The position numbers and the translations under genes are program-made. Below the pieces are notes generated by a model. It searched no databases. It was not told the DNA's origin and saw only the letters and a list, made by a program, of their open reading frames with translations. Positions 173 to 41,483 of a DNA stretch of 64,000 bases are shown here, piece after piece. Each line of letters begins with the position of its first letter. Within the stretch, counting starts at the first letter, position 1. The stretch is from an uncultured Cryomorphaceae bacterium (GTDB lineage Bacteria > Bacteroidota > Bacteroidia > Flavobacteriales > Schleiferiaceae): NCBI GenBank assembly GCA_937120475.1, contig CAKZJV010000008.1, forward strand, positions 1-64,000, written 5' to 3'.

Positions 173-2470
173 CTAAAATCTCGCGGTTAATCCTCCTCCA
201 AAGCCAAAACGGTTGTCGTAGCTGGCCATCAGCGAAAAGTTTCTTGACAGAAAATATTCAAGTCCGGCCGCCCATACCAGTTCTTCGTTATAGAGATCGT
301 TTCCGATGAGGTTGTCCTCATCACTAATATCATTGACCAGTCCAAAATCGGCCTGGTATTCAATTTCGCCAAAGGCAACGGTACGTGGTAGGATCATGAT
401 TTCCCTTTCCAGCCCTATTTGAGGCCTCAGCAGATTGTCGATGCGCACATCCAGGTCAAACATATAGGGGGTGAAAAAACGGAAACCGGCTACGGCTGTG
501 GTCACTACTTCGTCAAAACTGTTCTTTTTTTCATTCTCAACGTTTACTCCTGCAAATACCCTGAAATAGTCATACAAGTATCTTTCATAGGTAAATTCGC
601 CCTCGGCAATTTGATTCCAGCCGTATTCTACGTTTAGGTTTAGCTGATTTCGGATGTTGGCAGAAACCAAATTTAAAGAAGCCATATGTGAAGCCACTTC
701 CGTTCTGCCCCATGAGTACCAGTGCTTTCCTTCGTTTACAAGTACCTTAAGTGGGTATTCTTTGAGCCTGGGGTCACGTTCATCTCCATAACTATATACC
801 CGGGCCATTCCACTCATCATATGATAAAGAACATGACAGTGAAAAAACCAATCGCTGTCTTCAGTTGCAGCAAACTCAATTACTACCTTTTGCATTGGCG
901 GTACATTCACAGTATGCTTTAGAGGGCTTCTCTCACCATACTCATTGATTACCCTGAAAAAGTGGCCGTGCAGGTGCATGGGATGGTGCATCATGGTGAG
1001 GTTATTCAGCGTAATGCGCATCACCTTTCCCTTTTCAACTTTTATCTGGTCTGCCTCTGATAATGGAACCCCATTCATGCTCCAGATGTAGCGCCACATA
1101 TTACCGGTAAGGTTGAGCAAGACCTCTTTGACCGGCCTGTCTTCCGAAAAGCTGGTTTTCTCCACTGCCTCGAGGTAATCGTAATTGTATTCTGAAAACA
1201 TGGTCACACCTTCCATGGCCGAATTGTCCATGCCTATTTTTCCGGGGGCATGTGCGGTATCTGGTTTCACCTTCTCATCACGGACGTTCATACCGGAATG
1301 GTCCATTTCACCTTCCATATCCATATCTTCTTCCATCTGCATGCCCCTGTTTTCTTTCAGCTTGTAGGGTTCTTCATTTGATGGATTAAACTTCATAGCA
1401 GGAGCCCCCATGCGCATGTTCATTTTTGCCATCTGTTTCATCATGCCTATCTTATCAGGACGGGGAACATCAGGGGCAGCCAGGGTATCGCCACTGCCCA
1501 GGTAAGCCGAAGTCTGTCCTGAGCCATCCTGCACAGAGGCCCGCACCTCCATTTGGCCATTGTCCGGTATGGTCACTATAAAGTCATAGGTCTCGGCAAT
1601 TCCAATGAAAGTTTTATTATGCATTACCGGAACCACCCGCAGGCCATCTGCGGCTACCAACAAGGGGTCTTTGCCCCCGAACGTAAGCCAGTATTGCGAT
1701 GAAGCCGAGGCGTTGATAATGCGCAGGCGTACTTTATCACCCGGTTTATACTGCGTGTAGGCCACCTGCTTTTCACCATTCATCAGGAAAGCGGGATAGT
1801 AGATATCGGCTATATCTGCACTTTCCATCCGCTGCCGCCAGAATTTTAGCTGGGCCCCAAAGCCTCCCCGGGCAATGACCCTGTTCAGTGGCGTGGAGGT
1901 TCCTTTCTTCATGTTATACCACTCATTTCCACGTTTCAGGTTGCGGAGCACATTCATGGGTTTTTGGTTGGTCCAGTCAGATATTACCAATACCTGTTCG
2001 TGGTCGTAGTCCAATGTTTGCTCTTTGGGATGTATTACGATGGAACCGTACACCCCGCTTTGTTCCTGAAGCATGGTGTGCGAGTGGTACCAGTAGGTAC
2101 CGGATTGGATCAACGGATATTCATATTTCAGCGTTTCACCGGGTCTGATTGGCGGGGTGGTTAAATAGGGCACTCCATCGTAAAAATTGGGCAATAATAA
2201 GCCGTGCCAGTGTACTGAAGTTTCCACGTCCATTTTATTCTCCACATAAATTACGGCATAATCACCTTCGGTAAAGGTGAGGGTGGGGCCCGGGATATTG
2301 CCGTTAATCGTCATTCCGGTAACATCCTTTCCGGCTTTATTCACCGTTTCCTGGTCTATCGTTAAGTGATACACGGTGGTATCAGTTTGAGCCGACACAG
2401 GATTGGCAAGGGCCAGAACTAAGGCCGTGGCAAGTAAAAATTGTTTTCTGATTATGTTGTATTTATGCAT
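173..2470 (-). CDS. Multicopper oxidase fused to a CopB-like outer-membrane barrel
   Basis: A secreted CopA/laccase-type multicopper oxidase, expected to oxidise Cu(I) outside the cytoplasm. The chosen start (2470) gives a 765-aa protein opening with a signal peptide ending ANPVSAQ; an upstream ATG at 2551 would run into the preceding gene. Copper-site motifs are all visible: HWH at 87-89, WYHSH at 127-131, HPMHLHGH at about 496-503 and HCHVLYHMMSGM at 544-555. A Met/Asp/Glu-rich loop occupies about 343-395 and resembles copper-collecting loops of CopA proteins. Residues from about 585 to 765 are not oxidase: they resemble the CopB outer-membrane copper protein, with alternating aromatic strands and a terminal Phe typical of barrels. 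CopA and CopB are normally separate genes, so this looks like a natural fusion. The oxidase call is firm; the CopB assignment is from pattern only. Confidence 0.9.
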   Translation of the reverse strand: MHKYNIIRKQFLLATALVLALANPVSAQTDTTVYHLTIDQETVNKAGKDVTGMTINGNIPGPTLTFTEGDYAVIYVENKMDVETSVHWHGLLLPNFYDGVPYLTTPPIRPGETLKYEYPLIQSGTYWYHSHTMLQEQSGVYGSIVIHPKEQTLDYDHEQVLVISDWTNQKPMNVLRNLKRGNEWYNMKKGTSTPLNRVIARGGFGAQLKFWRQRMESADIADIYYPAFLMNGEKQVAYTQYKPGDKVRLRIINASASSQYWLTFGGKDPLLVAADGLRVVPVMHNKTFIGIAETYDFIVTIPDNGQMEVRASVQDGSGQTSAYLGSGDTLAAPDVPRPDKIGMMKQMAKMNMRMGAPAMKFNPSNEEPYKLKENRGMQMEEDMDMEGEMDHSGMNVRDEKVKPDTAHAPGKIGMDNSAMEGVTMFSEYNYDYLEAVEKTSFSEDRPVKEVLLNLTGNMWRYIWSMNGVPLSEADQIKVEKGKVMRITLNNLTMMHHPMHLHGHFFRVINEYGERSPLKHTVNVPPMQKVVIEFAATEDSDWFFHCHVLYHMMSGMARVYSYGDERDPRLKEYPLKVLVNEGKHWYSWGRTEVASHMASLNLVSANIRNQLNLNVEYGWNQIAEGEFTYERYLYDYFRVFAGVNVENEKKNSFDEVVTTAVAGFRFFTPYMFDLDVRIDNLLRPQIGLEREIMILPRTVAFGEIEYQADFGLVNDISDEDNLIGNDLYNEELVWAAGLEYFLSRNFSLMASYDNRFGFGGGLTARF

Positions 2471-2492: not shown

Positions 2493-3158
2493 TTAATGTT
2501 CGTGCGATTCTTCTGTTTCCAGGTATTTTCCTTTTGGGCCCACTCCTTCAATGTGTACCAATTGAGAGCCGTAGTGTCCGGCCTGACTTACAGAATAAGC
2601 GGCCCCGGCCAGCACCAGGCTTACCACTATTACCGCCCAACGATTCTGCTTTAAGACAAACTGACTGATTAGTTGCAGGACAAAAGCCGTGATGCTCAAC
2701 CAAATAGTCCAGTCGGCATATAAGTCATGTTGGTCAAGGACAGCTTGCATTTGCTCAGTAAGGTCATGGGCATGTGGATGAAACCACCTACCTGCTGCAT
2801 AAGCACCCAGGGCACCCAATCCGGTAAAAATGGTGATTATCCAATCCAGGTCTCTTTTGAGAAAGTGAATGTTGGCTATGGATATAAGTGCTGCCAGCAA
2901 TAGCAACACAATCGGAAAGTGGACGAGGAGAGGATGCAGGTTGGGAAACTCGTCAAAATCTGCTTTCACCGATTGCTTAGCCCTGGTTTCGGTATCAAAA
3001 TCCGCTACCCCATGATCATCAATTTCCTGAACCTGCTCTAGTTGTTCGGTGCTGTCCTTCTTATTGTGATCGTCATCACCGTGGGCCAGGGCAGCAGGAA
3101 TGCTGAGCAACAGGAGTAAACTCAAGGTCAGGCTGATGTGTACGATAGTTTTTTTCAT
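2493..3158 (-). CDS. DUF2231 membrane protein with His-rich exposed segment
   Basis: An integral membrane protein of the DUF2231 type, recognised by HPLLVHFPIVLLLL, a helix containing GAYAAGRWFHPHAH, and a C-terminal stretch SQAGHYGSQLVHIEGVG. A signal peptide ends near LAHGDDDH, which exposes a His/Asp-rich N-terminus that could bind metal. About four membrane helices follow. The start at 3158 is preferred over 3170 because AAGGG lies just ahead of it and MKKT begins a normal signal peptide. It lies 22 bases upstream of the multicopper oxidase start, so the two are probably co-transcribed. DUF2231 proteins often accompany copper or haem genes but have no settled function. Confidence 0.8.
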   Translation of the reverse strand: MKKTIVHISLTLSLLLLLSIPAALAHGDDDHNKKDSTEQLEQVQEIDDHGVADFDTETRAKQSVKADFDEFPNLHPLLVHFPIVLLLLAALISIANIHFLKRDLDWIITIFTGLGALGAYAAGRWFHPHAHDLTEQMQAVLDQHDLYADWTIWLSITAFVLQLISQFVLKQNRWAVIVVSLVLAGAAYSVSQAGHYGSQLVHIEGVGPKGKYLETEESHEH

Positions 3159-3177
3159 AGTACCCTTCATTTTCGTT

Positions 3178-3834
3178 TCAATAATTCATTAAAAAATAGC
3201 TACCACCTTCCTCCAGAAACACCTGGCTGATCAATCTCCGTTTTTTATCCAGCTTTTCTGTTACCTGGTAGGTAATGGTTTTTACATTTACCCCCCACAT
3301 ATAAGCTTTCACCGTTAACCGCGATGTAAGCGTAAAGCCTCTGCCTGTTGTCGAAACTATACGATCATTAATAGTTATGATGCTTTTAGAACCGAAAAAG
3401 CTCAGGATGCCGGATTCAACTGACATTTCCAGACTCAGGTTTTCCAGTTTTCGGTCATCTGCATCAAAGTCATAAAGCCTTTTAAACCCAGGAGAGGAGG
3501 CTTCTATCACATACGCTGCATTACCCTGCCGGGCGAATGGGAACACAGCGAGTAGTACGTCTGACTTGCCCGGTTCACAGGTGTATTGGGTAAGGTATTT
3601 ATCTTTGAGATTGCCTTCTTCATCAAAAAGGTTTACCTGCAGTTGAACACTCAATTGGTTTCCGGTGGTTTGGAGTTCTCCAACCCTAAAAACTTGTTTG
3701 GCGGTTAGCTCCTTATCGGTATTGAAGGCCTTTCGTACGACTTCCTTGCCGGCTATTTGCTCAATGAGCATATCTTGTCCATTAGCCGGAATACAATTAA
3801 TAAGAGCCAATATGACGATCAAATTCTTATACAT
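3178..3834 (-). CDS. Secreted protein of unknown function
   Basis: Not recognised. The 218-aa product has a signal peptide (MYKNLIVILALINCIPANGQ) and then a mostly beta-strand sequence without Cys clusters or His-rich motifs, so it is likely periplasmic or surface exposed. It overlaps the 3' end of the PRPP synthetase gene by 8 bases and ends 19 bases before the DUF2231 gene, placing it in the same operon. Confidence 0.6.
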   Translation of the reverse strand: MYKNLIVILALINCIPANGQDMLIEQIAGKEVVRKAFNTDKELTAKQVFRVGELQTTGNQLSVQLQVNLFDEEGNLKDKYLTQYTCEPGKSDVLLAVFPFARQGNAAYVIEASSPGFKRLYDFDADDRKLENLSLEMSVESGILSFFGSKSIITINDRIVSTTGRGFTLTSRLTVKAYMWGVNVKTITYQVTEKLDKKRRLISQVFLEEGGSYFLMNY

Positions 3835-4717
3835 GGTTCATGGTTGCTAATACCCTTGCAGCCAATATGCTGCTTAAATCAATCTTATTGCTTTCGTGCG
3901 GAATAGTGTTACAGGTAACTACTTCGGCACCTGCATTTATTAAATCCTGGTAGGCACTGCCCGCAAATACAGCGTGTACGCCAATGCAAACGGGAGCCTT
4001 CATCCCGGCATTTTTTAAATGACCTACAGTTTCAATCATGGTTCGGGCTGTAGAAATAATATCATCCACAAGCACGGGTGTATGTTCTTTAAATTCTTCC
4101 ACCTGCGGCACCGAAACTTCCACATCGCGGTCGCCATGGCGGGTTTTTTTCAGTACCATAAACGGTGCTTCCGCTGCTGTAGCCACTTCCGATACCCATT
4201 GCTCGCTTTCACTGTCGGGGCCTACCAATACCGGGTTTTCAACATTTTCTTTAACCCATCTGGAAATGACATTGGCTGCATGAACCACTTCTGATGGAAT
4301 ATTGTACACCTCACTAAGTGAACTCCTGCGGTGCAGATGCGGATCAACCGTGATAAGGCTGTCAGCAAAGCCGGAAATGAGCTTTCCAAAATAATCTGAT
4401 GTAACGCCTTCACCGGGTTTGAAGACCTTATCTTGCCGCATATAGGCCAGGTAGGGTGCCACCAGGCAGGTGCATTTGGCCCCAAGACTTTTGGCGGTTT
4501 GGGAGAGAAAGTACAATGGAAGTAGTTTTTCATCGGGCTGGTGCAGGGTAGCCACCAGCACTACGCATTTATCCCTTACATCGGATAGGATGCGTACATA
4601 GGTTTCTCCATCAGGAAATTGACGAATGGTAACTTCAGCAATTTTAGCTTTAAGATGAGTACTTAATTTTTCGGTTAATATTTCATTCCCGGGCAGGGCA
4701 ACAAGTATTGATTTCAT
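3827..4717 (-). CDS. prs: Ribose-phosphate pyrophosphokinase (PRPP synthetase)
   Basis: Makes 5-phosphoribosyl-1-pyrophosphate from ribose-5-phosphate and ATP. Visible signatures are the flexible-loop region RQFPDGE, the metal and ribose-phosphate site VDPHLHRR at about 127-134 and the PRPP-binding loop VLVDDIISTARTM near 217-229. At 296 aa it is shorter than the usual housekeeping bacterial enzyme and is closer in length and loop sequence to archaeal-type synthetases. It overlaps the methyltransferase gene by 4 bases. Together with the AMP phosphorylase-like gene at 5572-7092 it suggests a small nucleotide and ribose-phosphate module. A second, core prs is expected elsewhere in the genome. 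Confidence 0.9.
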   Translation of the reverse strand: MKSILVALPGNEILTEKLSTHLKAKIAEVTIRQFPDGETYVRILSDVRDKCVVLVATLHQPDEKLLPLYFLSQTAKSLGAKCTCLVAPYLAYMRQDKVFKPGEGVTSDYFGKLISGFADSLITVDPHLHRRSSLSEVYNIPSEVVHAANVISRWVKENVENPVLVGPDSESEQWVSEVATAAEAPFMVLKKTRHGDRDVEVSVPQVEEFKEHTPVLVDDIISTARTMIETVGHLKNAGMKAPVCIGVHAVFAGSAYQDLINAGAEVVTCNTIPHESNKIDLSSILAARVLATMNHV

Positions 4718-5350: not shown

Positions 5351-5575
5351 TTAAAAATCCTGGCTGAGCTGGATGGATGGACATGGTACCGAGCCATAGC
5401 TGCAGTACACACAACAATCTCCTTTCCGGGGCTTCAGTAATTCACCGCAATTGGTGCATTCATAAAAATACTGGCAGGCATCCTCGGGCATCCTTTCTTC
5501 CTTAACAAAGCCGCAGACCGGGCAGGTGATCACAGAATAGATTTGAATGGCGCGGTTATTATTTCCTTTGTTCAT
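5351..5575 (-). CDS. GDCCVxC-domain small zinc-ribbon-like protein
   Basis: A 74-aa protein rich in paired cysteines: CPVCG at 18-22, ECTNCGE, and the family signature GDCCVYCSYGSVPCP near the C-terminus. This matches the family named after GDCCVxC, some members of which carry selenocysteine. Here every relevant codon is an ordinary Cys codon, so it is the Cys form. It probably binds metal or does thiol chemistry; members usually sit in metal-resistance loci. It overlaps the end of the AMP phosphorylase-like gene by 4 bases. Confidence 0.85.
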   Translation of the reverse strand: MNKGNNNRAIQIYSVITCPVCGFVKEERMPEDACQYFYECTNCGELLKPRKGDCCVYCSYGSVPCPSIQLSQDF

Positions 5576-7092
5576 GTTATATCAATTATGCTGCTTTCAT
5601 TTTGCCGGTAGTACTCCAGTGCGTAATCGAGTTCACCTTGCGACTCGGCATGGATTTCATACAGCGTTTGTCCACTTTCTACTTTGGTTTCTGTTGGCGT
5701 CAAAAAATCTACCCCGGCTGATTTATCGTCCGGTGCTCCGGCAAGCTTGGCTATTTTGGCCAGCTTGCGGTTGTCAATGGCCGCTACCGTTCCTGCCCTT
5801 TTCGCTTGTACAGGATGTTGAAACCGTGCCTGCATGGGTTCGCGAAACCCACCTTGTGCCTCGCAGATTGCTATGAACTTCTTTAATGCTTTCCCGGAAT
5901 TGAGTAGAGTTTCAGCTTGGCTATGGCCATTACCGGGGTCAGCCTTTCCGGAAAGCTCCAGTAGTTCGCCTGCCAATCGTAAGGAGCGCTCTCTGAGGTC
6001 TGCCGGGGCAGTACCTTCATTGTTTAATACTGCCAGCACATCTCTTGCTTCCAGTGCCGGGCCAATGCCACGGCCCACTGGCTGGCTGCCATCGGTGATT
6101 ACAATTTTCAATTTCAGACCAACGGCTTCGGCCACCATCGTCATCCTTTTCGACAATTCTACCGCGTCATCAGAAGTGCGCACTTTAGCGGTAGGCCCCA
6201 CCGGGATGTCAATCACTACATGTGTGCTCCCGGCTGCCACCTTTTTGGAAAGTACGGAGGCTATCATTTGACCTTCGCTGTCAATGTCGAGGGCCTTTTC
6301 CACCCGTATCAAAATATCGTCAGCCGGGCTCAGTTGCATGGATCCGCCCCAGGCCAGGCAGCCGTTTTCTTGTTTCACTACTCTCTTCATCTCTTCCAAC
6401 GACAGGTTTACATTGGTGAAAACTTCCATCGTATCAGCCGTACCGGCCGGGGAAGTAATGGCCCGGGAGGAGGTTTTGGGAACCGTAAGCCCGGCAGCGG
6501 CAGCAATGGCTACCACTATGGGGGTGGTGCGGTTTCCCGGAAGACCACCAATGCAATGTTTATCGAAAACCCGGGCTGCAGGCCAGTGCAATTTTTGTCC
6601 GGCATCCACCATGGCTCTAGTCAGGTGGATGATTTCATCAATATCCAGCCGTCTTCCCGCGCAGGCGGTAACAAAAGCAGCTATTTCCACATTGGAGTAA
6701 TTGCCTGCAGCCAGATCGCTAACTATATCCTGTATTTGCGACTCCTTCAGACGGTGGCCATATACTTTGCCCCGTACGGCACTCATGGAGTTAATGGGCG
6801 GAAGGTGCGAAAACGCAAGTAAATCCCCCGCCTCCACCTTTAGGGAGGTTATTGCTTTTTGCGAAAGGCTTGCTTCCTCATGGCCCAGCAAGGCTTCGTT
6901 GTCCAACACATTTAGCGAAGCCACTATGCTGCGGTCACCGTGGCTGACCATTATCCGCGTGAGTGCTTCAAATCCTTCGGAAACACATACCGGGCAGTCC
7001 CTGCGCATATACACGGTGTGCTCGTTGCGGGTATCGATGCCAAGAGGTTTGAGGATTAGCTCATTGTGTTTATGTGATTTTTTATTCTTCAT
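5572..7092 (-). CDS. AMP phosphorylase / archaeal-type thymidine phosphorylase
   Basis: A nucleoside or nucleotide phosphorylase of the long archaeal type (506 aa, against about 440 aa for bacterial DeoA), with an extra N-terminal domain of about 85 residues. The phosphate and ribose site is KHCIGGLPGNRTTPIVVAIA, followed by SSRAITSPAGTADTME and the central SKKVAAGSTHVVIDIPVG. In archaea this enzyme releases ribose-1,5-bisphosphate from NMPs for isomerase and type III RuBisCO. Neither partner is in this window, so the product's fate here is unknown; feeding the nearby PRPP synthetase is an inference. Bacterial members are often named putative thymidine phosphorylase. The family call is firm; AMP against thymidine specificity is not settled. 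Confidence 0.87.
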   Translation of the reverse strand: MKNKKSHKHNELILKPLGIDTRNEHTVYMRRDCPVCVSEGFEALTRIMVSHGDRSIVASLNVLDNEALLGHEEASLSQKAITSLKVEAGDLLAFSHLPPINSMSAVRGKVYGHRLKESQIQDIVSDLAAGNYSNVEIAAFVTACAGRRLDIDEIIHLTRAMVDAGQKLHWPAARVFDKHCIGGLPGNRTTPIVVAIAAAAGLTVPKTSSRAITSPAGTADTMEVFTNVNLSLEEMKRVVKQENGCLAWGGSMQLSPADDILIRVEKALDIDSEGQMIASVLSKKVAAGSTHVVIDIPVGPTAKVRTSDDAVELSKRMTMVAEAVGLKLKIVITDGSQPVGRGIGPALEARDVLAVLNNEGTAPADLRERSLRLAGELLELSGKADPGNGHSQAETLLNSGKALKKFIAICEAQGGFREPMQARFQHPVQAKRAGTVAAIDNRKLAKIAKLAGAPDDKSAGVDFLTPTETKVESGQTLYEIHAESQGELDYALEYYRQNESSIIDIT

Positions 7093-7447: not shown

Positions 7448-7573
7448 TTATTTGAAGATTAACTGAAAAAATGCACCGATAAGTATCAATGCCAGTATGA
7501 TGGCCATAAGCCAGTTCCAGACACGGCCCGCTTTGCTTTTCTTTTGATCTGTTGTACGGCAACAATCTTTCAT
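7448..7573 (-). CDS. 41-aa single-span membrane protein
   Basis: A short gene between the copper-radical oxidase and the lipoprotein. Its ATG (7571-7573) overlaps the oxidase stop in a TAATG junction, a hallmark of translational coupling. The product starts MKDCCRTTDQKKSKAGRVWN, with a Cys pair and a basic cluster, and ends in one hydrophobic helix LMAIILALILIGAFFQLIF. It would place a CC motif on the cytoplasmic face. No family is recognised. The evidence is position, coupling and clean topology. Confidence 0.55.
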   Translation of the reverse strand: MKDCCRTTDQKKSKAGRVWNWLMAIILALILIGAFFQLIFK

Positions 7574-9546
7574 TATTTGGCCTCCAGTATTATTTTCGAA
7601 TTCCATGTTTTCCCATCTGCGTCCAATACTATCACGTACACCCCGGCTGGCAGGGCCGAAAGATCCAAAGCGTAATGGCCTTCAGTGTTTGTAATTTCCT
7701 TTTTCAGCCAAAGCCGGCCATTAAGGTCTATTATCCTGAGGAGGACACCGGTAGAGACACTTTCGGGAATTTCAAGCAGAACCTGTCCGGCTGAAGGGTT
7801 GGGGAATACTTTCAGCATTTGGCTTCGGCCGGTATTCCACTCGTTAATTCCTACAGTGCCATCTTCTTCAACCTTCAGCATTTCAGCAATAGAAGGCACA
7901 TCATCAACCATCACAAAAAGCATGTAGTAGCCTTCCGGCAATTCCACAGAATCAGCAGGCAACTGAACACTAAGGTTATTGCCATTCTGTGAAAAGGATA
8001 ACTCCAGGAAACGGTTGTTGCCTGAGTTCATGAAATGGGTGACAGAAGCTGTGGAGATCAGGCGTACTGCTGTAACTGAGTCTGCAAATGACACGTTTAC
8101 ACTGAGTGAACTGCCCTGCTCAAAAGGGCCGGTTACAAAGTTAATCACCGGGCGAACACCACGAAATAGGTAGGGAGGCGAAAAGGCTTCTATTACGCTT
8201 GCCGGGGGTTCATTGCCGGGCTGCCCCTCACCGCCCACGGTTATTACCCGCCCATCGGGCACCAAAATAGTGGTGGCGTGGTACTCGCGCGCATAGTTAA
8301 GGCTGTCCAGTCTGCGCCAGCTATCGGTAGCAGGGTCATACTCATCCGTGAGGTAAAGCTGGCCCCACTGGTTCACAGGGGCTGAATGGGCCTGGTCTTC
8401 TTTGAAGCCTCCGGCCACCATTATTTTCCGGTTGGGCAGCAATACCATTTTTGCCCTCGAACGCATGGGCGCAAAGTTGCTTCCCAGGCTCCAGCTATCG
8501 GTTTGCGAATCGTATATTTCTACCAGGTTGCCCAATTGGTTGGGCGTGAAAGAAATATATCCAATGGCCACGGCCCTTCCGTCATCATTGGGAAGCAGGA
8601 TAAGTTCATGGTCGCTGTGGTCGCCATTGGGCATACGGTTGCTTTGTACAAAATCGGCAGCCGGGCTCCATTGATCTGTGGCAGGGTCAAAGAGTTGAGG
8701 TGGGCGGTGCGTCATCAGTACTTTACCGTTGTAAAGCTGCACGATGGGCGATACTTCGTTGCCCACGGCAATGGTATCTCCCCAGGTGCTTTGGCCGGTA
8801 GCCGGGTCGTACAATTCGGTAGTGTTTACCCGCACCGGGTTTTGCAGGCCACCACCTCCTGTGACCAGAATGCGGCCATCTGATAATGGGGCTACCGCAG
8901 GGTACCAGCGGTAATCCAGCAAGTTTGGCCTCAACTGCCAATTATCGGCCACAGGGTCATAGGCTTTTACCTTTTTGATGCCCGGCCCATATACCTGCTG
9001 GTCTGTGCCGCCCATAAAAATCACCTCCCCGCTGTTGAGCAACAAAGGCCCCACGCATCCCTGTGTGGTATTGTAACCTGTAGCTGTGAGTACCTGATCA
9101 GTGGCCGGGTCAAAGAGAAAAGGGTCTTCCGTATCGTGGCAGTAAAAGATAGAGCCATCGGGGAGCAAAATACCCAGGTCTGTACCGCCAAGTGACTGAG
9201 GCGAGTTCAGCAAAATATTCCACTCGCCCGGATGGGTTTCGGCCTGAAGTGAAAAGTTTAAGGAGGCAAGGCTTGTGCTGAGGTTCAGTACTGTATCCAG
9301 GTAATCCATTCCTTCTTTGGCCACACCGAGAGTATAGCTGCCGCTGGGGACATTGGCAAAAGCATAGCTGCCTGTAAGTGCACTCCTGGTCTCTTCAAAA
9401 AAGGTGGTATCGCCATTGAATAAAATCACCCTGGCATCTTGTACCGGCTGCATATTGCTGTAGGTGATACTGCCGTTGATGGTGTTTTGGGCTTTAGCCG
9501 TGAGGCAAAGCCCAAGCGATAGGATAAATATAAGAGCTTGTTTCAT
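7573..9546 (-). CDS. Secreted copper-radical (galactose/glyoxal) oxidase, T9SS substrate
   Basis: A 657-aa secreted protein: signal peptide 1-19, a carboxypeptidase-regulatory-like beta domain at about 21-100, a seven-bladed kelch propeller at about 105-455, a DUF1929 E-set domain at about 460-560, and a type IX secretion sorting domain from about 578 (VFPNPSAGQ) to the end. The layout and residues fit galactose/glyoxal oxidases, which use one copper and a Cys-Tyr radical to oxidise alcohols or aldehydes and make H2O2. Candidate ligands are all present: Cys164 in GCVGPLLL, Tyr215 in RWYPAV, Tyr422-His423 in REYHATTI and His504 in VTHFMN. The substrate is unknown. It sits in a run of copper genes, which suggests it either uses or buffers copper. 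Confidence 0.85.
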   Translation of the reverse strand: MKQALIFILSLGLCLTAKAQNTINGSITYSNMQPVQDARVILFNGDTTFFEETRSALTGSYAFANVPSGSYTLGVAKEGMDYLDTVLNLSTSLASLNFSLQAETHPGEWNILLNSPQSLGGTDLGILLPDGSIFYCHDTEDPFLFDPATDQVLTATGYNTTQGCVGPLLLNSGEVIFMGGTDQQVYGPGIKKVKAYDPVADNWQLRPNLLDYRWYPAVAPLSDGRILVTGGGGLQNPVRVNTTELYDPATGQSTWGDTIAVGNEVSPIVQLYNGKVLMTHRPPQLFDPATDQWSPAADFVQSNRMPNGDHSDHELILLPNDDGRAVAIGYISFTPNQLGNLVEIYDSQTDSWSLGSNFAPMRSRAKMVLLPNRKIMVAGGFKEDQAHSAPVNQWGQLYLTDEYDPATDSWRRLDSLNYAREYHATTILVPDGRVITVGGEGQPGNEPPASVIEAFSPPYLFRGVRPVINFVTGPFEQGSSLSVNVSFADSVTAVRLISTASVTHFMNSGNNRFLELSFSQNGNNLSVQLPADSVELPEGYYMLFVMVDDVPSIAEMLKVEEDGTVGINEWNTGRSQMLKVFPNPSAGQVLLEIPESVSTGVLLRIIDLNGRLWLKKEITNTEGHYALDLSALPAGVYVIVLDADGKTWNSKIILEAK

Positions 9547-9558
9547 GGGTTTCGGTTT

Positions 9559-10098
9559 TTAAGGATGGTGCGGATAATGTGCATGGTGCAAGGAATCAAT
9601 TTGGTCGTGATGATGAAGACCATGCCCGTTGAAATGGCCGTCATCATTATGGTGAGGGCCGCCATGCGAGTTGTGGTGATGCTGGCCGTGGCCCTGGTTT
9701 ACCAGTAGCGAATCGTGGTGGTGTACGCTATGGTCACCATGATTGTGATTACCATGATCGTTGTGCCCACCCTGGTGATGCACATTGGTGCTGTCGTGGT
9801 GGTGATCGTCATGGTCATTTACATGCGAATAGTTGTGATGGTGGTGCCAGTACAGCGAATCATGATGATGGAACAGGCTGTCGAAATGATGTTTCTGGCT
9901 GTTGTGCTGTGCGTGGACCAGCGAATCGTTGTAGTGCCCCATCATCTGATAGTTTTCTTCCATGCCCTGCACGGCTGCTTTGTCAGCGGCTGAAAGTTCA
10001 GGGTTGTCATTCTCCTCCGCCACGAGATCTTCCTTTTGGCAGGATACGGCCAGGAAAATGACTGCTATAACGGATAATAAAATGTTTGAATTTTTCAT
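9559..10098 (-). CDS. Extremely His-rich lipoprotein
   Basis: A 179-aa lipoprotein: signal with lipobox AVSC, a short acidic stalk, then about 44 histidines in 130 residues arranged as irregular repeats of HHHDSL and GHxxHxH. It would be tethered in the envelope and likely chelates or stores copper, zinc or nickel. Nothing else in the sequence suggests an enzyme. It begins 11 bases after the end of the M43 protease gene and lies 12 bases ahead of the copper-radical oxidase, so it may serve as a metal sponge for secreted metalloenzymes. Confidence 0.85.
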   Translation of the reverse strand: MKNSNILLSVIAVIFLAVSCQKEDLVAEENDNPELSAADKAAVQGMEENYQMMGHYNDSLVHAQHNSQKHHFDSLFHHHDSLYWHHHHNYSHVNDHDDHHHDSTNVHHQGGHNDHGNHNHGDHSVHHHDSLLVNQGHGQHHHNSHGGPHHNDDGHFNGHGLHHHDQIDSLHHAHYPHHP

Positions 10099-30110: not shown

Positions 30111-31904
30111 TTATTTTATGCTATCTTCAACTTCTCCACATCCCAGCATAGCTTCACCGAAATAGGGGTTTTTAATTTCGCTTTCCAGGCTAAGCCAGTC
30201 GGCACCCTTGTTATTATCAGCCATGGGGCAAAACTGAACGTACAGGGTCTGGTCATAGGGTTTAAAAATCTTCGCAAGCATTTTCAGTTGTGAAGAGATC
30301 TCAATAAAGTGTTCTCTGACTTTTTTGATATCCTCTGTAGCCGAAGCTTTTCCTGCTGCCGATTCCAGGGCACTACTATGCTTCATCCATACATTGTGCG
30401 CCTCTCCAGTAAAGAGGGCCATATTTATTTTGCCCAGTTCCTGTTTTAGCTTTTTGGCATTAGCCTGTGCTTTGGAGGCATTGTCATTTACAAGGGCGTC
30501 CTTCATTTCCAGGTAAGCATCTATGACCGGTTTCAGGGCCTTTTTGGCTTTAGTACCTATGGTAATATCCTGCTTATGGGCGCTATGCCCGTCTTCTGAG
30601 CCGGCAGGGGCATTGCCCATACTGCCGTGGTTATGACCGGTCATGGCGGAGCCACCTTCCGGGTTCATCATGCTTGGCTTTCCGGCAAGTTGTGCTGCGG
30701 CATCAATGCTGAAGGTTCCACTTACAGCTATTTCTTCTCCGGGATCCAGGCCTTCTTTTACAATAAATCCTTCCCCCAATTCTGGCCCCAATACCACCTC
30801 GCGCATAATGAAGTTGACACCTTGGGCAGAGCTGCTTTTCATGTAAACTACAGAGCGTTCACCTGTCCACATTACTGCAGATTTTGGGATGACCAGGGCA
30901 TCTTCATTATACTCCAGGCTGGCATCTACCACGCCACTCGCAAACATCTCAGGCTTTAGCTTATTATTGGCGTTTCGCATTTCCACTCTGGCCTTGGCCA
31001 CCCTTGTTTTGGGATTTAATACCGGATCAAGAAATGTAATCTTACCGCTGAATTGCTCACCGGGGAGGGATTGTACTGTGAAGTTTACCCGGTCGCCCTC
31101 ATCAATCCATGGAAGGTCAGATTCATACACATCAAAAAGCACCCATACCTTACTGAGATCGGCAATTTCATAAATAGGTTCGCCTTTTCGGATATAGTCA
31201 CCCAGGTTCACTTTTTTGCTAATGACATAACCGGAAACATCAGCCACAATCGGGAAATTTTCAATCGTTTCATCAGCATTCAATATCCTCTCTATCTGGG
31301 ATTCGGATAATTTCCAGTTGCGCAATTTTTCAATGGCCGAACGGTAGAGGGCCGGTTGGCTTTCCTTGATTTTGCGAGCTTCAAAAACTTCTTCCTGGGC
31401 GGTTACCAGGTCAGGGGAATAGATGTGTGCCAGTAACTGGCCTTTTTTTACAAACTCACCGGTGTAGTTCACATTTAGATTTTCGATACGACCGGGGATG
31501 TGGCTGGTCTGGGAAAAAACGAGCCGTTCGTCTTCCTGCACTTTCCCGTTGAGGCGAACTTTTTTCAGCGGCTCCATAGCACCTGCTGTAGCCGTACGTA
31601 CGTTGGCCAATTGCATGGCTGTAGGCGACATGGATATGGCCATAGGATCCATCTCCGAACCGGCTTCATCCTCAAGCGGAATGAGATCCATGCCGCAGAT
31701 GGGGCAATCACCGGGTTCACTTTGCCGGATCTGAGGGTGCATGGAGCAGGTCCAGACGGTTTCTTCCCCAGCGGCCATTTCGGTGTGTTCATGTACTTCT
31801 TCAGTGGGCGTATCCTTGCCAGGAAAAATCAGCCAGCCCGCCAGCATACCGACAACAAGTGTGGCGGCAAGGCTTATCCAGAATGTTTTTTTATTGATAG
31901 GCAT
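30111..31904 (-). CDS. cusB: CusB-like RND periplasmic adaptor with metal-binding and DUF3347 domains
   Basis: A 597-aa membrane-fusion protein linking the inner-membrane pump to the outer-membrane channel. Layout: membrane anchor 8-28; heavy-metal-binding domain 50-78 (VWTCSMHPQIRQ, CPICGMDLIP); barrel-sandwich and hairpin at about 115-250 (HIPGRIENLNVNYTGEFVKK); beta-barrel and membrane-proximal domains to about 410; a His/Met-rich linker at 411-444; and a DUF3347 domain at about 455-597. The last two parts are additions to the classical CusB length of about 400. It starts 4 bases after the channel gene stops. The metal is most likely Cu(I)/Ag(I). Confidence 0.92.
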   Translation of the reverse strand: MPINKKTFWISLAATLVVGMLAGWLIFPGKDTPTEEVHEHTEMAAGEETVWTCSMHPQIRQSEPGDCPICGMDLIPLEDEAGSEMDPMAISMSPTAMQLANVRTATAGAMEPLKKVRLNGKVQEDERLVFSQTSHIPGRIENLNVNYTGEFVKKGQLLAHIYSPDLVTAQEEVFEARKIKESQPALYRSAIEKLRNWKLSESQIERILNADETIENFPIVADVSGYVISKKVNLGDYIRKGEPIYEIADLSKVWVLFDVYESDLPWIDEGDRVNFTVQSLPGEQFSGKITFLDPVLNPKTRVAKARVEMRNANNKLKPEMFASGVVDASLEYNEDALVIPKSAVMWTGERSVVYMKSSSAQGVNFIMREVVLGPELGEGFIVKEGLDPGEEIAVSGTFSIDAAAQLAGKPSMMNPEGGSAMTGHNHGSMGNAPAGSEDGHSAHKQDITIGTKAKKALKPVIDAYLEMKDALVNDNASKAQANAKKLKQELGKINMALFTGEAHNVWMKHSSALESAAGKASATEDIKKVREHFIEISSQLKMLAKIFKPYDQTLYVQFCPMADNNKGADWLSLESEIKNPYFGEAMLGCGEVEDSIK

Positions 31905-31908
31905 TGTC

Positions 31909-33141
31909 TTAATTTTTAGAAGTGATGTAATTCAGTTTTGCTTCCGCTATTTTGTACTCGGAGAGGCTGGTAGCCTGCATCATTTGGTATTTCAGCAACT
32001 GTTGTTGCATGCGAAGCACTTCTTCAAAGTCATTTCCATTATTGGAGTAGGAAGTGAACAATAGGTTCAGTGCCTGGCCCGTTTCATCGATCTGTTCACG
32101 GTATAAATCGAGGTTCTGACGCTGCTTTTCCATCTCAAACCAGACCATCTCGTAAGCACTTCCCAGGTTGTTGACCATTTCCTGCCGCATATCCCTGTAC
32201 GCTTCCTGCATGATTCGCGCTTCCTCTTTGGCTGCCTTGTACTTTCCCCTGAAAATGGGAAGACTCATGGTCAACATCGGCATCACTACATCCTGCCCAT
32301 TGTCAGCAAGATCCATATCGGTGCGTTCACCTACCAATACATAATCGAGACCAAGGCCAAAACTGGGGAGGCCTTTGCGAATGGCCGATTTTTCCTGTTC
32401 CTTCATTGCTTCTTCCTTGAGGCTCAGCTCTTCAAGCAAGGGGTGGTTTATCAATAAACTGTCCCTGCGATAGCCATCTGGTAAAGGAGATACATTTATA
32501 GTATCCACAATGCTGACGGTTTCCGAAGCATCACGGTTCAACTGGTTGTTGAAACGGGTCAGCAGCGGTTGGCGCTTATCCTCCAGGATATCGATGTTAG
32601 TGCGGGCATCCTTAATCATGATATCTACCCGCAGCACATCTACCATACTGCTCTGGTTGTTTTCGTATTTGCTTTGGGCCAAAGTCATAAATGACTCCAG
32701 TATTTCAAGGTTTTCCCGCTGCAGGCGCAACTGCTCGTCTAATTCGTAGAGCGGATAGTAGGCATCTGCAACATGGTAATAGAGCTTGTTGCGGGCATCG
32801 ATGAAACTCTGGTATTTGGCTTGTGCCATAAGGGCAGCGGCATTACCTTGTGCTTCAAGCGTACCGAACCACGGAAACATCTGGCTCAGCGAAAACTTAG
32901 CTTGCTGAGGTCCTACCCGTGTTTCTACCGGTGATATAAAATACCCGAAAGACAAAGTAGGGTCCGGCAGACTGCTCACCTGCGGGACCTTTTCAAGGGC
33001 AGCTTTGAACTCTTTGTACCTGCCCTGCAGGCCGGGGTTGTTCTCTGCCGCTATTTTCTGGTAATCCTCAAGGTCCTGGCCCCATGCCCAAAGTGGCAGG
33101 GCCATTACCAGGAGTATTATGACATTCTTTATCAGTTTCAT
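31909..33141 (-). CDS. cusC: TolC/CusC-type outer-membrane efflux channel
   Basis: A 410-aa outer-membrane factor with a signal peptide (ALPLWAWGQ) and long helical repeats typical of the TolC family; the second repeat starts at about LLINHPLLEELSLKEEAM. SFGYFISPVETRVGP and the alternating coiled-coil segments fit the channel of CusCBA-type pumps in Bacteroidota. It is encoded between the pump and the adaptor with gaps of 6 and 4 bases, so the three are made together. Confidence 0.88.
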   Translation of the reverse strand: MKLIKNVIILLVMALPLWAWGQDLEDYQKIAAENNPGLQGRYKEFKAALEKVPQVSSLPDPTLSFGYFISPVETRVGPQQAKFSLSQMFPWFGTLEAQGNAAALMAQAKYQSFIDARNKLYYHVADAYYPLYELDEQLRLQRENLEILESFMTLAQSKYENNQSSMVDVLRVDIMIKDARTNIDILEDKRQPLLTRFNNQLNRDASETVSIVDTINVSPLPDGYRRDSLLINHPLLEELSLKEEAMKEQEKSAIRKGLPSFGLGLDYVLVGERTDMDLADNGQDVVMPMLTMSLPIFRGKYKAAKEEARIMQEAYRDMRQEMVNNLGSAYEMVWFEMEKQRQNLDLYREQIDETGQALNLLFTSYSNNGNDFEEVLRMQQQLLKYQMMQATSLSEYKIAEAKLNYITSKN

Positions 33142-33147
33142 AATTCT

Positions 33148-36100
33148 TTAGCTTTTTGCTTCTAATTTTTTCACCTTTCTTTCTTCCCGTATAGAGTAGA
33201 GCACCGGCACAATGAAAATGCTCACCAGGGCAAAGGCCATTCCACCAAATGTGGGTATTGCCATAGGGATCATGATGTCTGCCCCGCGTCCGGTAGAAGT
33301 CAATACCGGCAGCAGCGCGATCATGGTGGTGGAAACTGTCATTAGTGCCGGACGAATTCTCCGCAAACCGGCCTCTAAAACGGCCGCCCTTACCTCATCA
33401 TGGCTTGTGGGTTTATTGCGCATAAAGCTCTGGTCGAGATAGGTGGCTATCAGTACGCCATCATCCGTGGCAATACCGAAGAGCGCGATAAAACCTACCC
33501 ATACTGCCACACTCAGGTTAATGGTGTGCATCTGGAACAAATCCCTGAAGTTGGTATCAAACACACTGAAATCGGCAAACCATCCCTGCCCATAGAGCCA
33601 TATCATGATAAAGCCACCACTGAAAGCCATGGCAATACCACTGAACACCATTAGGGAGGTAGTAACCGACTTGAACTGGAAATAAAGAATAAGGAAGACA
33701 ATGACCAGCACCAGAGGAACAATGATAGAGAGCCTCTTCTCTGCCCGGACCTGGTTTTCGTAGCTGCCGGAAAATTTATAGCTGATACCGGCCGGCACTT
33801 CCAGGTTACCTGCATCGATTTCCGCTTGAATAGCCTCCTGGGCATCATTGACTACTTCTACTTCGGCAAACCCATCGCGCTTATCAAAAAGTACATAACC
33901 CACCAGGAAGGTTTCCTCACTTTTGATGGCCTGAGGCCCCCTTACGTATTCAATATCCACTACCTGGCCGATGGGTATTTGTGCACCAGTGGGAGTGGGT
34001 AGAAGAATATTGCTCAAGGCCTCAGGATCATCGCGTAATTCGCGTGGGTATCTTACTCTTACAGGGAAGCGTTCCCTGCCTTCCACGGTAGAAGTGATTT
34101 TCATACCACCAATCGCAGTCTCAATGGTTTGCTGAACATCTTCTACATTGAGGCCATAACGCGAAATTTCGTCACGGTCAATATTCAGGTGAACGTATGG
34201 TTTGCCCACAATACGATCCGCAAAAACGGCTTCTTTCTTCACAGAAGGCACGCCTTTTAATATTTCCTCAAGTTTCAACCCAAAGTTTTCGATAGTAGGC
34301 AGGTCAGGACCGTAAACCTTAATACCCATGGGGGCTCTCATGCCGGTTTGCAGCATCACCAACCGGGTTTCGATAGGTTGAAGCTTTGGAGCTGAGGTGA
34401 CACCAGGTATCTTAGTCACCTTTACAATTTCGTCCCAGATGTCGTCAGGTGAATGAATGTGATCTCTCCAGTTTCTGAAGAATTGCCCACCATCATAAGG
34501 AATAAGCTGTTCCTTATTAACCCCCGCCTCAAGAGCCGCACTGTTGCTAAGCGTATCGCCTGAAGTAAGGATAAAACGGTCTTCATCATCTACTTTATAG
34601 CGTTGCCTGAAGCCCTTATCATTGACCATGTATTCAGGCTTATAATTAATGATGTTTTCATACATGGAAATAGGCGCGGGATCCAGCGCAGATTCTACAC
34701 GGCCCAGCTTGCCAACGGTGAGGTCCACTTCTGGTATATTGGTAAGCAACATATCCAGTTGGCCCACTACCTTTTTATTGAACTCAATACCTGAATGAGG
34801 CATGGAGGTGGGCATCAACAGAAAACTGCCTTCATCAAGTGAGGGCATAAACTCCTTACCTACGCCAGGGAATGTGTGAGTTAATCCGCTCCAAACGCTC
34901 GTGGTACGGATGTCCACACCTACGGTGTCAAAACCTTTGGCTACAAAACCAAACACAGAATTGAAACCTATCCAGATCATTACCCCCAAGAGCATAAGTG
35001 CGGTGGGTATGGCAAGAAACTTCGCTTTGTTGTTGAGACACCACTTGAGAATGGATTCGTAATAGCGTTGCAAGAGGGAAAAGCCTCCAAGAATGATGCT
35101 CACCAATAAGCCAACGAAAACGAAATTGAGCAACAAGCTTTTCTGGGCTCCAAGAGGCAACCAGTACTTCCCAAGCAGCCAGGTGACGACCAGCACCACT
35201 ACAATGACACTCATGTTCCTGGTAAACCAGTTTTGTTTGGAGCTGTAACGTTTTACAAACCATGCTGCTCCAAAAGCTATCAGGGCAATGCCTGCCCACA
35301 ACACTTGAAAGATGGCCACTATCAGCCCTACAACTATAAGGCTTGCATTGAGTAGGCGGGCTGTTTTTTCACGCTTTACGCGTATTCCGAAAAACCAATG
35401 AGCCAATGCCGGGAGTATAAGCAGCGAAACTATGAGCGCTGCTATCAGCGCAAAAGTTTTGGTAAATGCCAGCGGCCCAAACAGTTTTCCCTCGGCAGCC
35501 TGCATGGTGAAAACAGGGATAAAGCTTACAATAGTGGTAGATACGGCAGTAACTATAGCCGTTGCCACTTCAGCACTACCACGATAAATGGTTTCAATCA
35601 ACTTATCCCCGGGTGAGGCTTCATCAACGTGCTTGATGATGTTTTCCGAGAGTATGACCCCAAGATCTACCATTGTACCAATAGCAATGGCGATGCCGGA
35701 GAGCGCCACAATATTGGCATCTACACCAAAGTAGCGCATGGCTATAAATACCATGAGCACTGATATGGGCAATAAGCTGGATATAAGCAGAGAGGCCCTG
35801 AGGTTAAAGACGGAAACAATTACCACCAGAATAGTAATGAGCACCTCCAGTGAGAGGGCTTCCTCCAATGTTCCCAGGGTTTCATGGATCAGGGTGGAAC
35901 GGTCGTAAAAAGGCACAATGGTTAATTGGCTTTCCACTCCACTGTCTAGAATTTTCTTGGGCAGACCGGGAGCAATCTCCTTGATTTTATCTTTCACATT
36001 GTTAATCACCTGCAAAGGATTGGAACCGTAACGGGCTACCACCACGCCACCCACCACTTCCGCTCCATCCTTATCGAGCATACCTCTTCTGGTGGCAGGG

Positions 36101-36954
36101 CCCAAGGTTACCACGCCAATATCTTTTATCCGGATTGGCACATTGTCCTCAACCGCTACCACGGCTTTTTCTATATCCTCCAGTTTCTTTATATAACCAA
36201 GGCCACGTACCAGATATTCCGCCTGGTTTATTTCAATGGTTTTAGCCCCTACATCTTTATTGGACTTACGGACGGCCTGCATGACCTTGTGCAAGGGAAT
36301 ATCATAAGCCTTGAGGGCATCGGGGTTCACATCAATCTGGTACTCCTGCACGTAGCCTCCTATAGAAGCTACTTCCGAGACACCACCAGTAGCGTTGAGG
36401 GCATATTTCACGTAAAAATCCTGCACCGTACGGATTTCATGTAAATCCCACCCTCCGGTGGGGTTGCCCTCTTTGTCCCGGCCTTCGAGCGTATACCAAT
36501 ACACCTGCCCAAGCGCTGTTGCATCAGGGCCCAGGGCTGGCTGAACACCTTCCGGGAGGAGATCGGTGGGTAAAGAGTTAAGTTTCTCTAAAATTCTGGA
36601 ACGGCTCCAGTAAAACTCAATATCTTCTTCAAAAATGATGAAGATGCTGGAGAAACCAAAGATGGAGGAACTACGGATAGATTTTACCCCGGGAATACCC
36701 AGGAGGTAAGTGGTTAAGGGATAGGATATCTGATCTTCGATGTCCTGTGGTGAGCGGCCCGGCCACTCCGTATAAACGATTTGCTGGTTTTCGCCAATAT
36801 CGGGAATGGCATCTACGGGCACCGGGTCGGAGGGCAATGCGCCTATTTGCCAGCCAAAGGGTGCGGTGACGATACCCCAGGTAATAAGCCCTATGAGGAG
36901 TAAAGAAGTAACTAACTTATTCTCCAGAAAATATCTGATGATTTTATTAAGCAT
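33148..36954 (-). CDS. cusA: CusA/CzcA-family heavy-metal RND pump
   Basis: A proton-driven metal exporter. The start at 36954 (MLNKIIRYFLENKLV) gives 1268 aa; an ATG 27 bases upstream is less likely. Signatures are PVDAIPDIGENQQIVYTEW, the proton-relay helix AIAIGTMVDLGVILSENI with Asp and Glu, and the second half ATDDGVLIATYLDQSF. The protein is about 200 residues longer than Escherichia coli CusA. The extra part, near the middle, holds several added hydrophobic helices (RLLNASLIVVGLIVAIFQVL onward) before the second periplasmic domain. This long form is usual in Bacteroidota. Metal preference, Cu/Ag or Co/Zn/Cd, is inferred as copper from neighbours. Confidence 0.93.
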   Translation of the reverse strand: MLNKIIRYFLENKLVTSLLLIGLITWGIVTAPFGWQIGALPSDPVPVDAIPDIGENQQIVYTEWPGRSPQDIEDQISYPLTTYLLGIPGVKSIRSSSIFGFSSIFIIFEEDIEFYWSRSRILEKLNSLPTDLLPEGVQPALGPDATALGQVYWYTLEGRDKEGNPTGGWDLHEIRTVQDFYVKYALNATGGVSEVASIGGYVQEYQIDVNPDALKAYDIPLHKVMQAVRKSNKDVGAKTIEINQAEYLVRGLGYIKKLEDIEKAVVAVEDNVPIRIKDIGVVTLGPATRRGMLDKDGAEVVGGVVVARYGSNPLQVINNVKDKIKEIAPGLPKKILDSGVESQLTIVPFYDRSTLIHETLGTLEEALSLEVLITILVVIVSVFNLRASLLISSLLPISVLMVFIAMRYFGVDANIVALSGIAIAIGTMVDLGVILSENIIKHVDEASPGDKLIETIYRGSAEVATAIVTAVSTTIVSFIPVFTMQAAEGKLFGPLAFTKTFALIAALIVSLLILPALAHWFFGIRVKREKTARLLNASLIVVGLIVAIFQVLWAGIALIAFGAAWFVKRYSSKQNWFTRNMSVIVVVLVVTWLLGKYWLPLGAQKSLLLNFVFVGLLVSIILGGFSLLQRYYESILKWCLNNKAKFLAIPTALMLLGVMIWIGFNSVFGFVAKGFDTVGVDIRTTSVWSGLTHTFPGVGKEFMPSLDEGSFLLMPTSMPHSGIEFNKKVVGQLDMLLTNIPEVDLTVGKLGRVESALDPAPISMYENIINYKPEYMVNDKGFRQRYKVDDEDRFILTSGDTLSNSAALEAGVNKEQLIPYDGGQFFRNWRDHIHSPDDIWDEIVKVTKIPGVTSAPKLQPIETRLVMLQTGMRAPMGIKVYGPDLPTIENFGLKLEEILKGVPSVKKEAVFADRIVGKPYVHLNIDRDEISRYGLNVEDVQQTIETAIGGMKITSTVEGRERFPVRVRYPRELRDDPEALSNILLPTPTGAQIPIGQVVDIEYVRGPQAIKSEETFLVGYVLFDKRDGFAEVEVVNDAQEAIQAEIDAGNLEVPAGISYKFSGSYENQVRAEKRLSIIVPLVLVIVFLILYFQFKSVTTSLMVFSGIAMAFSGGFIMIWLYGQGWFADFSVFDTNFRDLFQMHTINLSVAVWVGFIALFGIATDDGVLIATYLDQSFMRNKPTSHDEVRAAVLEAGLRRIRPALMTVSTTMIALLPVLTSTGRGADIMIPMAIPTFGGMAFALVSIFIVPVLYSIREERKVKKLEAKS

Positions 36955-37060
36955 AATGCAGTCAATGTTTTTGTTGAACAAAAAGGTGTTCGAGAGCCCA
37001 AACAGGCGCTTTTACCCGCAGCTCAAATTCTGAGGCAGGTGCCAATTGACATTATGCTTT

Positions 37061-39769: not shown

Positions 39770-40282
39770 CTAATCGGCATCTTTCCAGGTTTTATGTCGC
39801 CTATTACATTCCCGTTTTGGAAGCCCCAGTTTGGGATTTACTGTTTCACAAAGCTCTGTTAGTTTTTCAGAAGCCGTAATAGGTGAAATGGTTTGAGCTG
39901 CTACCATCTGGTCTAAAATCCAGAAATGTCCATGGACATCTACGTCTTTTGATTTGGCAAATTTTCGTAGCTCATTATCACTGGTGAGAAGTGTAGCCGA
40001 GATGGATTGGGCCTTGTAGAGTGCTGAACAGTCTTGCTCTGAGAGGCTTGGCTTTTGAATTCGAATGGCTATGATTTCTTCCAGTTCTTTTTCCGATACC
40101 TCGTGCAGCTGCAAGCTTCCGTCTTCTATATAAGGTGTAAGGGCTTCAGCCTGCACTTCAAATAATTCATCCAGAATGATAGATGTGGTGTGGAACTCCA
40201 TCTGCAAGGCGAAGAAATGGGGTAGCAGTCTTAGCTCCACCAAATCAATTAACACATTGGCATCATTCACTACTACTCTCAT
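39770..40282 (-). CDS. PIN-domain nuclease, probable toxin or Argonaute effector
   Basis: A 170-aa PIN-fold protein. The acidic catalytic set is Asp7 in VVVNDANVLIDL, Glu39 in SIILDELF, Asp84 in SEQDCSALY and Asp102 in LLTSDNELRKFA, all in proper order. PIN proteins cut single-stranded RNA, often tRNA. A C-terminal extension from about 120 is helical and basic (KRECNRRHKTWK). It overlaps the Xre-ImmA gene by 4 bases, as in toxin-antitoxin pairs, and precedes the Argonaute in the same direction. Whether it serves as a free toxin or as the killing arm of the Argonaute cannot be told from sequence. Confidence 0.82.
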   Translation of the reverse strand: MRVVVNDANVLIDLVELRLLPHFFALQMEFHTTSIILDELFEVQAEALTPYIEDGSLQLHEVSEKELEEIIAIRIQKPSLSEQDCSALYKAQSISATLLTSDNELRKFAKSKDVDVHGHFWILDQMVAAQTISPITASEKLTELCETVNPKLGLPKRECNRRHKTWKDAD

Positions 40283-41325: not shown

Positions 41326-41330
41326 GACAA

Positions 41331-41372
41331 TTGGTTTACAACTATATGCAAATGTACTATTTTGTAAACCAA
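41331..41372 (-). promoter_or_regulatory. Promoter bracketed by a perfect 11-bp inverted repeat (xre-immA)
   Basis: TTGGTTTACAA (41331-41341) and TTGTAAACCAA (41362-41372) are exact reverse complements. Between them, on the minus strand, is the -7 box TACATTTGC (41348-41356), and the upstream arm covers the -33 position. The distal arm is 6 bases from the start codon. This is the expected layout for autorepression by the Xre domain. Confidence 0.75.
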
Positions 41373-41483
41373 AATGCAAACTTGCTGTCCTTTGTTGCCA
41401 ATAGCTAAACTGACTTCCAAAAAACCAAAGGAGGGTTAAGATTACCAGTGGGTTGTGGTTTCTTAGTTTTAATCTCAATGTAC

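Follow-up and report, generated by a model that had tools for sequence, protein, structure and literature searches.

A CopA-type multicopper oxidase fused to a CopB/PcoB-like barrel domain in Bacteroidota

Introduction

Can a copper oxidase and the outer-membrane barrel that serves it be one protein? The question is raised by a gene at positions 173-2470 of the DNA analysed here, a window of 64,000 nucleotides from an uncultured Cryomorphaceae bacterium (Bacteroidota), where a preliminary description made from the sequence alone had read a multicopper oxidase joined to a CopB-like barrel.

Fusion itself has already been noted in the literature, and the 173-2470 protein adds a member. PcoA-PcoB fusions in five Legionella species are described in a 2012 report (PMC3548706); these also combine the oxidase and PcoB in one protein, but they belong to Gammaproteobacteria, and the comparison is one of published descriptions. 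For Bizionia argentinensis, a 2024 article describes residues 611-809 of the oxidase G2EDV6 as porin-like with some PcoB similarity (PMC11213822). One of our loci (L024), from the same strain, encodes 809 aa, the published length of G2EDV6, and the latter appears to belong to the same family as the 173-2470 protein. In the accessible sections of that one-genome survey G2EDV6 is called a putative periplasmic oxidase, and the lineage-wide fusion is not developed (PMC11213822). A search of the open-licence literature, in the portions of text that it returned, found no account of the lineage-wide picture, the exclusion pattern, the Tat-to-Sec switch or the PcoB-like structural match set out below.

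Domain organization of the fused protein

The gene lies on the minus strand, a point on which the preliminary description was silent, and a reading-frame check found it free of internal stops. The fusion proposed for it is real, with three Cu-oxidase domains and a tail in one frame (Table 1). Residues 1-561 are a CopA/PcoA-type multicopper oxidase, in which the HCH motif falls at residues 544-546. The copper-ligand motifs (HxHG, HxH, HPxHxHG, and HCHxxxH followed by M/L) occur in this protein and in each of the 163 others inspected (26 classical CopA and 57 + 80 fused proteins). The oxidase shares with PcoA/CopA (TIGR01480) its three cupredoxin domains, the full copper-ligand motif set and the Met-rich stretch, but differs in having a Sec-type instead of a Tat signal, a long C-terminal barrel, and a score of 391.7 bits against TIGR01480, below the curated NCBIfam cut-off of 478.95.

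Table 1. Features of the fused gene and its upstream neighbour, in window positions
Feature	Position	Strand	Details
Fused multicopper oxidase / CopB-like barrel gene	173..2470	-	765 aa plus stop
Sec-type signal peptide, ~residues 1-28	2387..2470	-	Read by eye; without twin-arginine motif
Cu-oxidase_3, residues 39-150	2021..2356	-	Pfam; copper ligands HWHG, WYHSH
Cu-oxidase domain, residues 159-312	1535..1996	-	Pfam
Met-rich stretch, residues 343-425	1196..1444	-	Predicted pLDDT <50 at 380-422
Cu-oxidase_2, residues 448-561	788..1129	-	Pfam; HPMHLHGH, HCHVLYHMMSGM
Linker, residues 562-584	719..787	-	Predicted models; short helix ~574-582 ahead of barrel
CopB/PcoB-like barrel, residues 585-764, 12 predicted strands	179..718	-	Models, Foldseek, VIA-align 2, hhalign
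C-terminal Phe	176..178	-	Aromatic final residue, a trait of many outer-membrane barrels
Upstream neighbour, weak DUF2231-like membrane protein	2493..3170	-	20.3 bits vs cut-off 26.4

Predicted structure of the tail

An AlphaFold2 model of the whole protein, made with 64 relatives (mean pLDDT 80.6, pTM 0.81), predicts 12 strands in residues 585-764, and a model of the tail alone (residues 560-765, mean pLDDT 89.9) again has 12 strands, the first of them preceded by a short helix. The preliminary description had drawn a barrel-like extension over residues 585-765 ending in Phe; the span of the predicted strands fits these bounds closely, the translation does end in Phe, and a barrel is predicted, against the possibility that the tail would lack one. 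In a Foldseek search with the tail model, Escherichia coli PcoB (7PGE) ranked first (E 3.7e-6) and NalP next (6.0e-4). The top match in VIA-align 2 was likewise 7PGE (Z 16.6, rmsd 2.6 Å over 160 residues), nearly tied with OmpLA (Z 15.6); NalP reached Z 11.6, and KdgM-type porins were close in Z. PcoB is described as a 12-stranded barrel with both termini in the periplasm (PMC9210255).

Sequence relationship between the tail and CopB

Against the Pfam CopB family (PF05275) the protein scores 13.3-13.6 bits (13.6 with the tail alone), below the cut-off of 27. In single-tail Pfam searches, CopB was matched by 35 of 65 tails (E <=0.1) and the generic OMP_b-brl by 48, and a shallow tail profile run with hmmsearch against the PDB retrieved no barrel and no PcoB chain (best E 0.58). 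Profile-profile comparison with hhalign gave CopB a probability of 58.8% with a shallow tail alignment and of 90% (E 1.7e-6, score 47.2 over 124 columns) with a deeper one, in which 74 diverse tails (from 140, after an 80% identity filter) were set against 20 CopB sequences. Reversed controls gave 0.2%, the top score among 50 column shuffles was 21.2, and other barrel families scored 36.7 (PF13505, 70.6% over 20 columns) and 26.3 (PF04338). The CopB resemblance noted in the preliminary description is supported, PcoB/CopB being the top structural match and, of the families compared by profile, the one matched most strongly. Judged from these profiles, the tail is a divergent relative of CopB that shares its ancestry. 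Like PcoB/CopB (PF05275; 7PGE), it is a 12-stranded barrel as modelled, with significant profile similarity, and partners a CopA-type oxidase; PcoB/CopB, however, is a separate protein with a disordered N-terminal region, whereas the tail is fused through a linker of ~23 residues and stays below the Pfam cut-off.

The acidic pairs of the PcoB pore, D97-E207 and E130-E223, are only partially matched when mapped to the 74 tails, in an uncertain register: the D97 position is acidic in 64%, the E207 position in 42/74, and residue E704, aligned with PcoB E223, is acidic in 44/74. The tails have conserved acidic positions of their own at E623 (74/74), E730 (72/74) and D752 (70/74), and D674 and D678 also count among their conserved acidic residues.

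Distribution of the fused and separate forms

The same genome carries a second fused copy on another contig (C9, 41566-43806; 72% identity), and a sister species carries one at 90% identity. Every one of the best 80 relatives in named records (genome_contigs), from Cyclobacterium, Algoriphagus, Aequorivita, Hymenobacter, Maribacter and other genera, aligns into the tail, although these were picked as best matches to a fused query and are uninformative on frequency. The tail after HCH measures 214-228 aa in the 79 of the 80 with a closed frame, the other (L062) running off its contig. The second copy, the sister species, the 80 relatives and their tail lengths together make the fusion more than chance, and the search of other Bacteroidota bears out the preliminary description, with the fusion recurring in many independent genomes. 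An additional N-terminal heavy-metal-binding stretch (TYTCPMHP...GKCPKCGM type) occurs in L004, L177, L180, L186, L198 and other loci, whose fused proteins are roughly 870-930 aa long.

A sample of 395 genomes of the phylum gives the wider picture. TIGR01480 at E <=1e-80 matched 78 of them, over its cut-off in 26. Among the 31 over-cut-off matches, the 26 that were read (one per genome) all end 25-35 aa past HCH, while all 62 below-cut-off matches are long-tailed (200-233 aa in the 57 measured). PF05275 was found in 27 of the 395 genomes, in one of them (G256) only as a short broken stretch. A separate CopB accompanies classical CopA in 26/26 genomes and is found in 0/52 genomes that have only the fused form; within this same phylum the separate CopB adjoins CopA. 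Both kinds occur in genera g99 and g112, in different species. The fused arrangement looks usual in one large bacterial group, whereas in most studied bacteria the copper-detoxifying enzyme and the outer-membrane pore are separate proteins.

A 47-row tail profile was also searched against the 395 genomes, with no more than 8 candidates scored per genome. It gave 75 strong matches, 71 of them in frames of at least 700 aa. Of its nine weak matches, eight are separate CopB genes already found by PF05275, and the ninth (G132) has no adjoining oxidase and looks like chance. Candidates for free-standing tail genes, namely the other four strong matches, in short frames (G294, G086, G121 and G306), and one further fragment (G041), were each rejected, none being an unfused tail gene. 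The tails of G294, G121 and G306 adjoin oxidase sequence from which a frame change or a stop separates them, G086 is cut by a contig end yet fused in frame, and G041 consists of just the final 31 residues, the inspected stretch around it giving no match to an oxidase. A 714-aa frame in G381, considered as a fusion with canonical CopB, was likewise rejected, since CopB there has its own start and is 243 aa long.

Among plasmids, 25 of 3,841 matching records span 80% or more of the query. One is from Ilyobacter polytropus (Fusobacteriota); its protein, of 675 aa, ends in a tail of this kind and is the sole case here outside Bacteroidota. The remaining 24 we take from their genus names to be Bacteroidota. 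Of the 105 oxidase domains placed in a quick tree, 79 were from fused proteins (every fourth genome_contigs relative, the 57 of the phylum sample, the 173-2470 protein and Ilyobacter), and a branch with SH-aLRT 100 separates these 79 from the others. A single origin of the fused form is likely on this sequence tree, short of proof because some fused rows are long branches.

Export route

The two forms differ at their N-termini. A strict twin-arginine motif precedes the oxidase in 26/26 classical CopA proteins (25/26 before allowing for start choice) and in none of the fused proteins, at 0/57 in the phylum sample and 0/80 among the named-record relatives, nor in the 173-2470 protein; relaxing the pattern to K or R at its first position gave matches in 14/57 fused proteins. 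Barrel proteins cross the inner membrane unfolded through Sec, while Tat carries proteins that are already folded, so that a change from Tat to Sec is expected when an oxidase is fused to a barrel. The last residue is aromatic in 56/57 and 79/79 fused proteins and in 5/26 classical CopA. The Sec-type signal, together with the barrel and the aromatic C-terminus, leads us to infer that the fused protein resides in the outer membrane.

Genomic surroundings

The neighbours of the C9 copy are DUF305, DUF2231 and DUF302 proteins and an efflux adaptor of CusB type that includes a heavy-metal-binding domain, a setting consistent with a role in metal resistance. Downstream of this copy is an amino-acid permease, and in the sister species the gene is followed by a frame whose start is similar. 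Also in the sister species, a 31-aa piece from the end of the gene recurs, identical, at the end of another contig (G002 C32 / end of C1), as if a repeat had broken the assembly.

Elsewhere in the window, a CusB-like adaptor with a heavy-metal-binding domain, an outer-membrane efflux protein and an RND pump form a Cus-type metal efflux cluster (30111-36981, minus strand). A protein of 179 aa (9559-10098, minus strand) is extremely His-rich, begins like a lipoprotein and matches no Pfam family; it adjoins a kelch/galactose-oxidase-like secreted protein (7573-9546). A prokaryotic Argonaute of 687 aa (37629-39692, minus strand; Piwi domain, E 1.1e-15) has two neighbours, an HTH/peptidase M78 protein (40279-41487) and a DUF3987 protein (41484-43724). 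Genes resembling those for ribose-phosphate pyrophosphokinase and nucleoside phosphorylase are found near each other (3827-4717 and 5572-7092, minus strand).

Alternative explanations

The plainest alternative, raised in the preliminary description itself, is that an assembly or sequencing error joined two genes, and the position of the gene near the start of its contig might invite it. We reject this explanation, whose probability is negligible, because the fusion recurs: in the copy on the other contig, in the sister species, at the 80 named-record loci and in all 62 below-cut-off CopA matches. It is also improbable that the tail is an unrelated small porin joined to the oxidase, resembling CopB merely by being a barrel. 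OmpLA and the KdgM-type porins do come close in Z, and PF13505 reaches its 70.6%, over 20 columns; CopB, however, is aligned over 124 columns at 90% against 0.2% for the reversed controls, eight of the nine weak tail-profile matches are CopB in genomes rich in other barrels, and the separate CopB of the same phylum is itself the neighbour of CopA.

Type V autotransporters consist of an N-terminal passenger, a short helix and a C-terminal 12-stranded barrel. The fused protein has the same domain order, which raises the idea that the oxidase is threaded through the barrel for display on the cell surface. NalP as the second Foldseek match and a weak match to the Pfam Autotransporter family (PF03797; E 0.026, 14.7 vs 26 bits) point the same way. 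PcoB nevertheless fits much better than NalP by both E-value and Z, both ends of its barrel are described as periplasmic (PMC9210255), as is the separate PcoA (PMC12509749), and surface display is highly improbable. A barrel that only anchors the oxidase at the outer membrane, with no copper passing through it, would be consistent with the partial conservation of the PcoB pore residues and with the tail's score under the Pfam cut-off. A mere anchor, however, would not need E623, E730 and D752 to be acidic in nearly all tails; the barrel is nearest by structure to a copper channel, and genomes with only the fused form lack a separate CopB. We regard an anchor without copper passage as rather unlikely.

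A proposed single-chain model for copper handling

One chain probably does the job of the two-protein PcoA-PcoB (CopA-CopB) pair. In this model, the chain would be exported unfolded by Sec, as its signal suggests, and the C-terminal 12-stranded barrel would insert in the outer membrane. The ~23-residue linker would then hold the oxidase where the barrel opens to the periplasm, since a barrel with an even number of strands, like that of PcoB, begins and ends on the periplasmic side. The oxidase, given its family and its intact copper ligands, would turn Cu(I) into Cu(II), which may then pass to or through the barrel and so protect the periplasm, with both the flux of metal and its direction being suppositions of the model. 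For PcoB itself, uptake is favoured in one study (PMC9210255) and efflux in another (PMC12509749).

In Caulobacter, a disordered arm of PcoB is described as stabilising PcoA, which is placed in the periplasm, and the arm is suggested to dock PcoA and hand on Cu(II) (PMC12509749). In the fused protein the oxidase occupies the place of this arm, with a joint of ~23 residues, so that the partners are covalently held and the most likely site of the oxidase is the periplasmic opening of the pore. We tentatively propose, as a broader reading about which we are less than confident, that in Bacteroidia a single chain, in which an oxidase is coupled to an outer-membrane copper channel, has taken over from the two-protein pair. 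The fusion and the Tat-to-Sec switch would have come together, with the oxidase folding and loading copper after export, replacing the disordered PcoB arm that stabilises PcoA, and handing Cu(II) straight into the pore.

If this is true, the fusion would be natural evidence for a PcoA-PcoB complex in other bacteria. A natural single chain fixes the partners 1:1 on one membrane, making PcoA docking and the direction of copper testable with one protein. The fusion also suggests that barrel linkage accompanies loss of the oxidase's Tat export, and that proteins annotated as "periplasmic multicopper oxidase" in Bacteroidota are often outer-membrane proteins.
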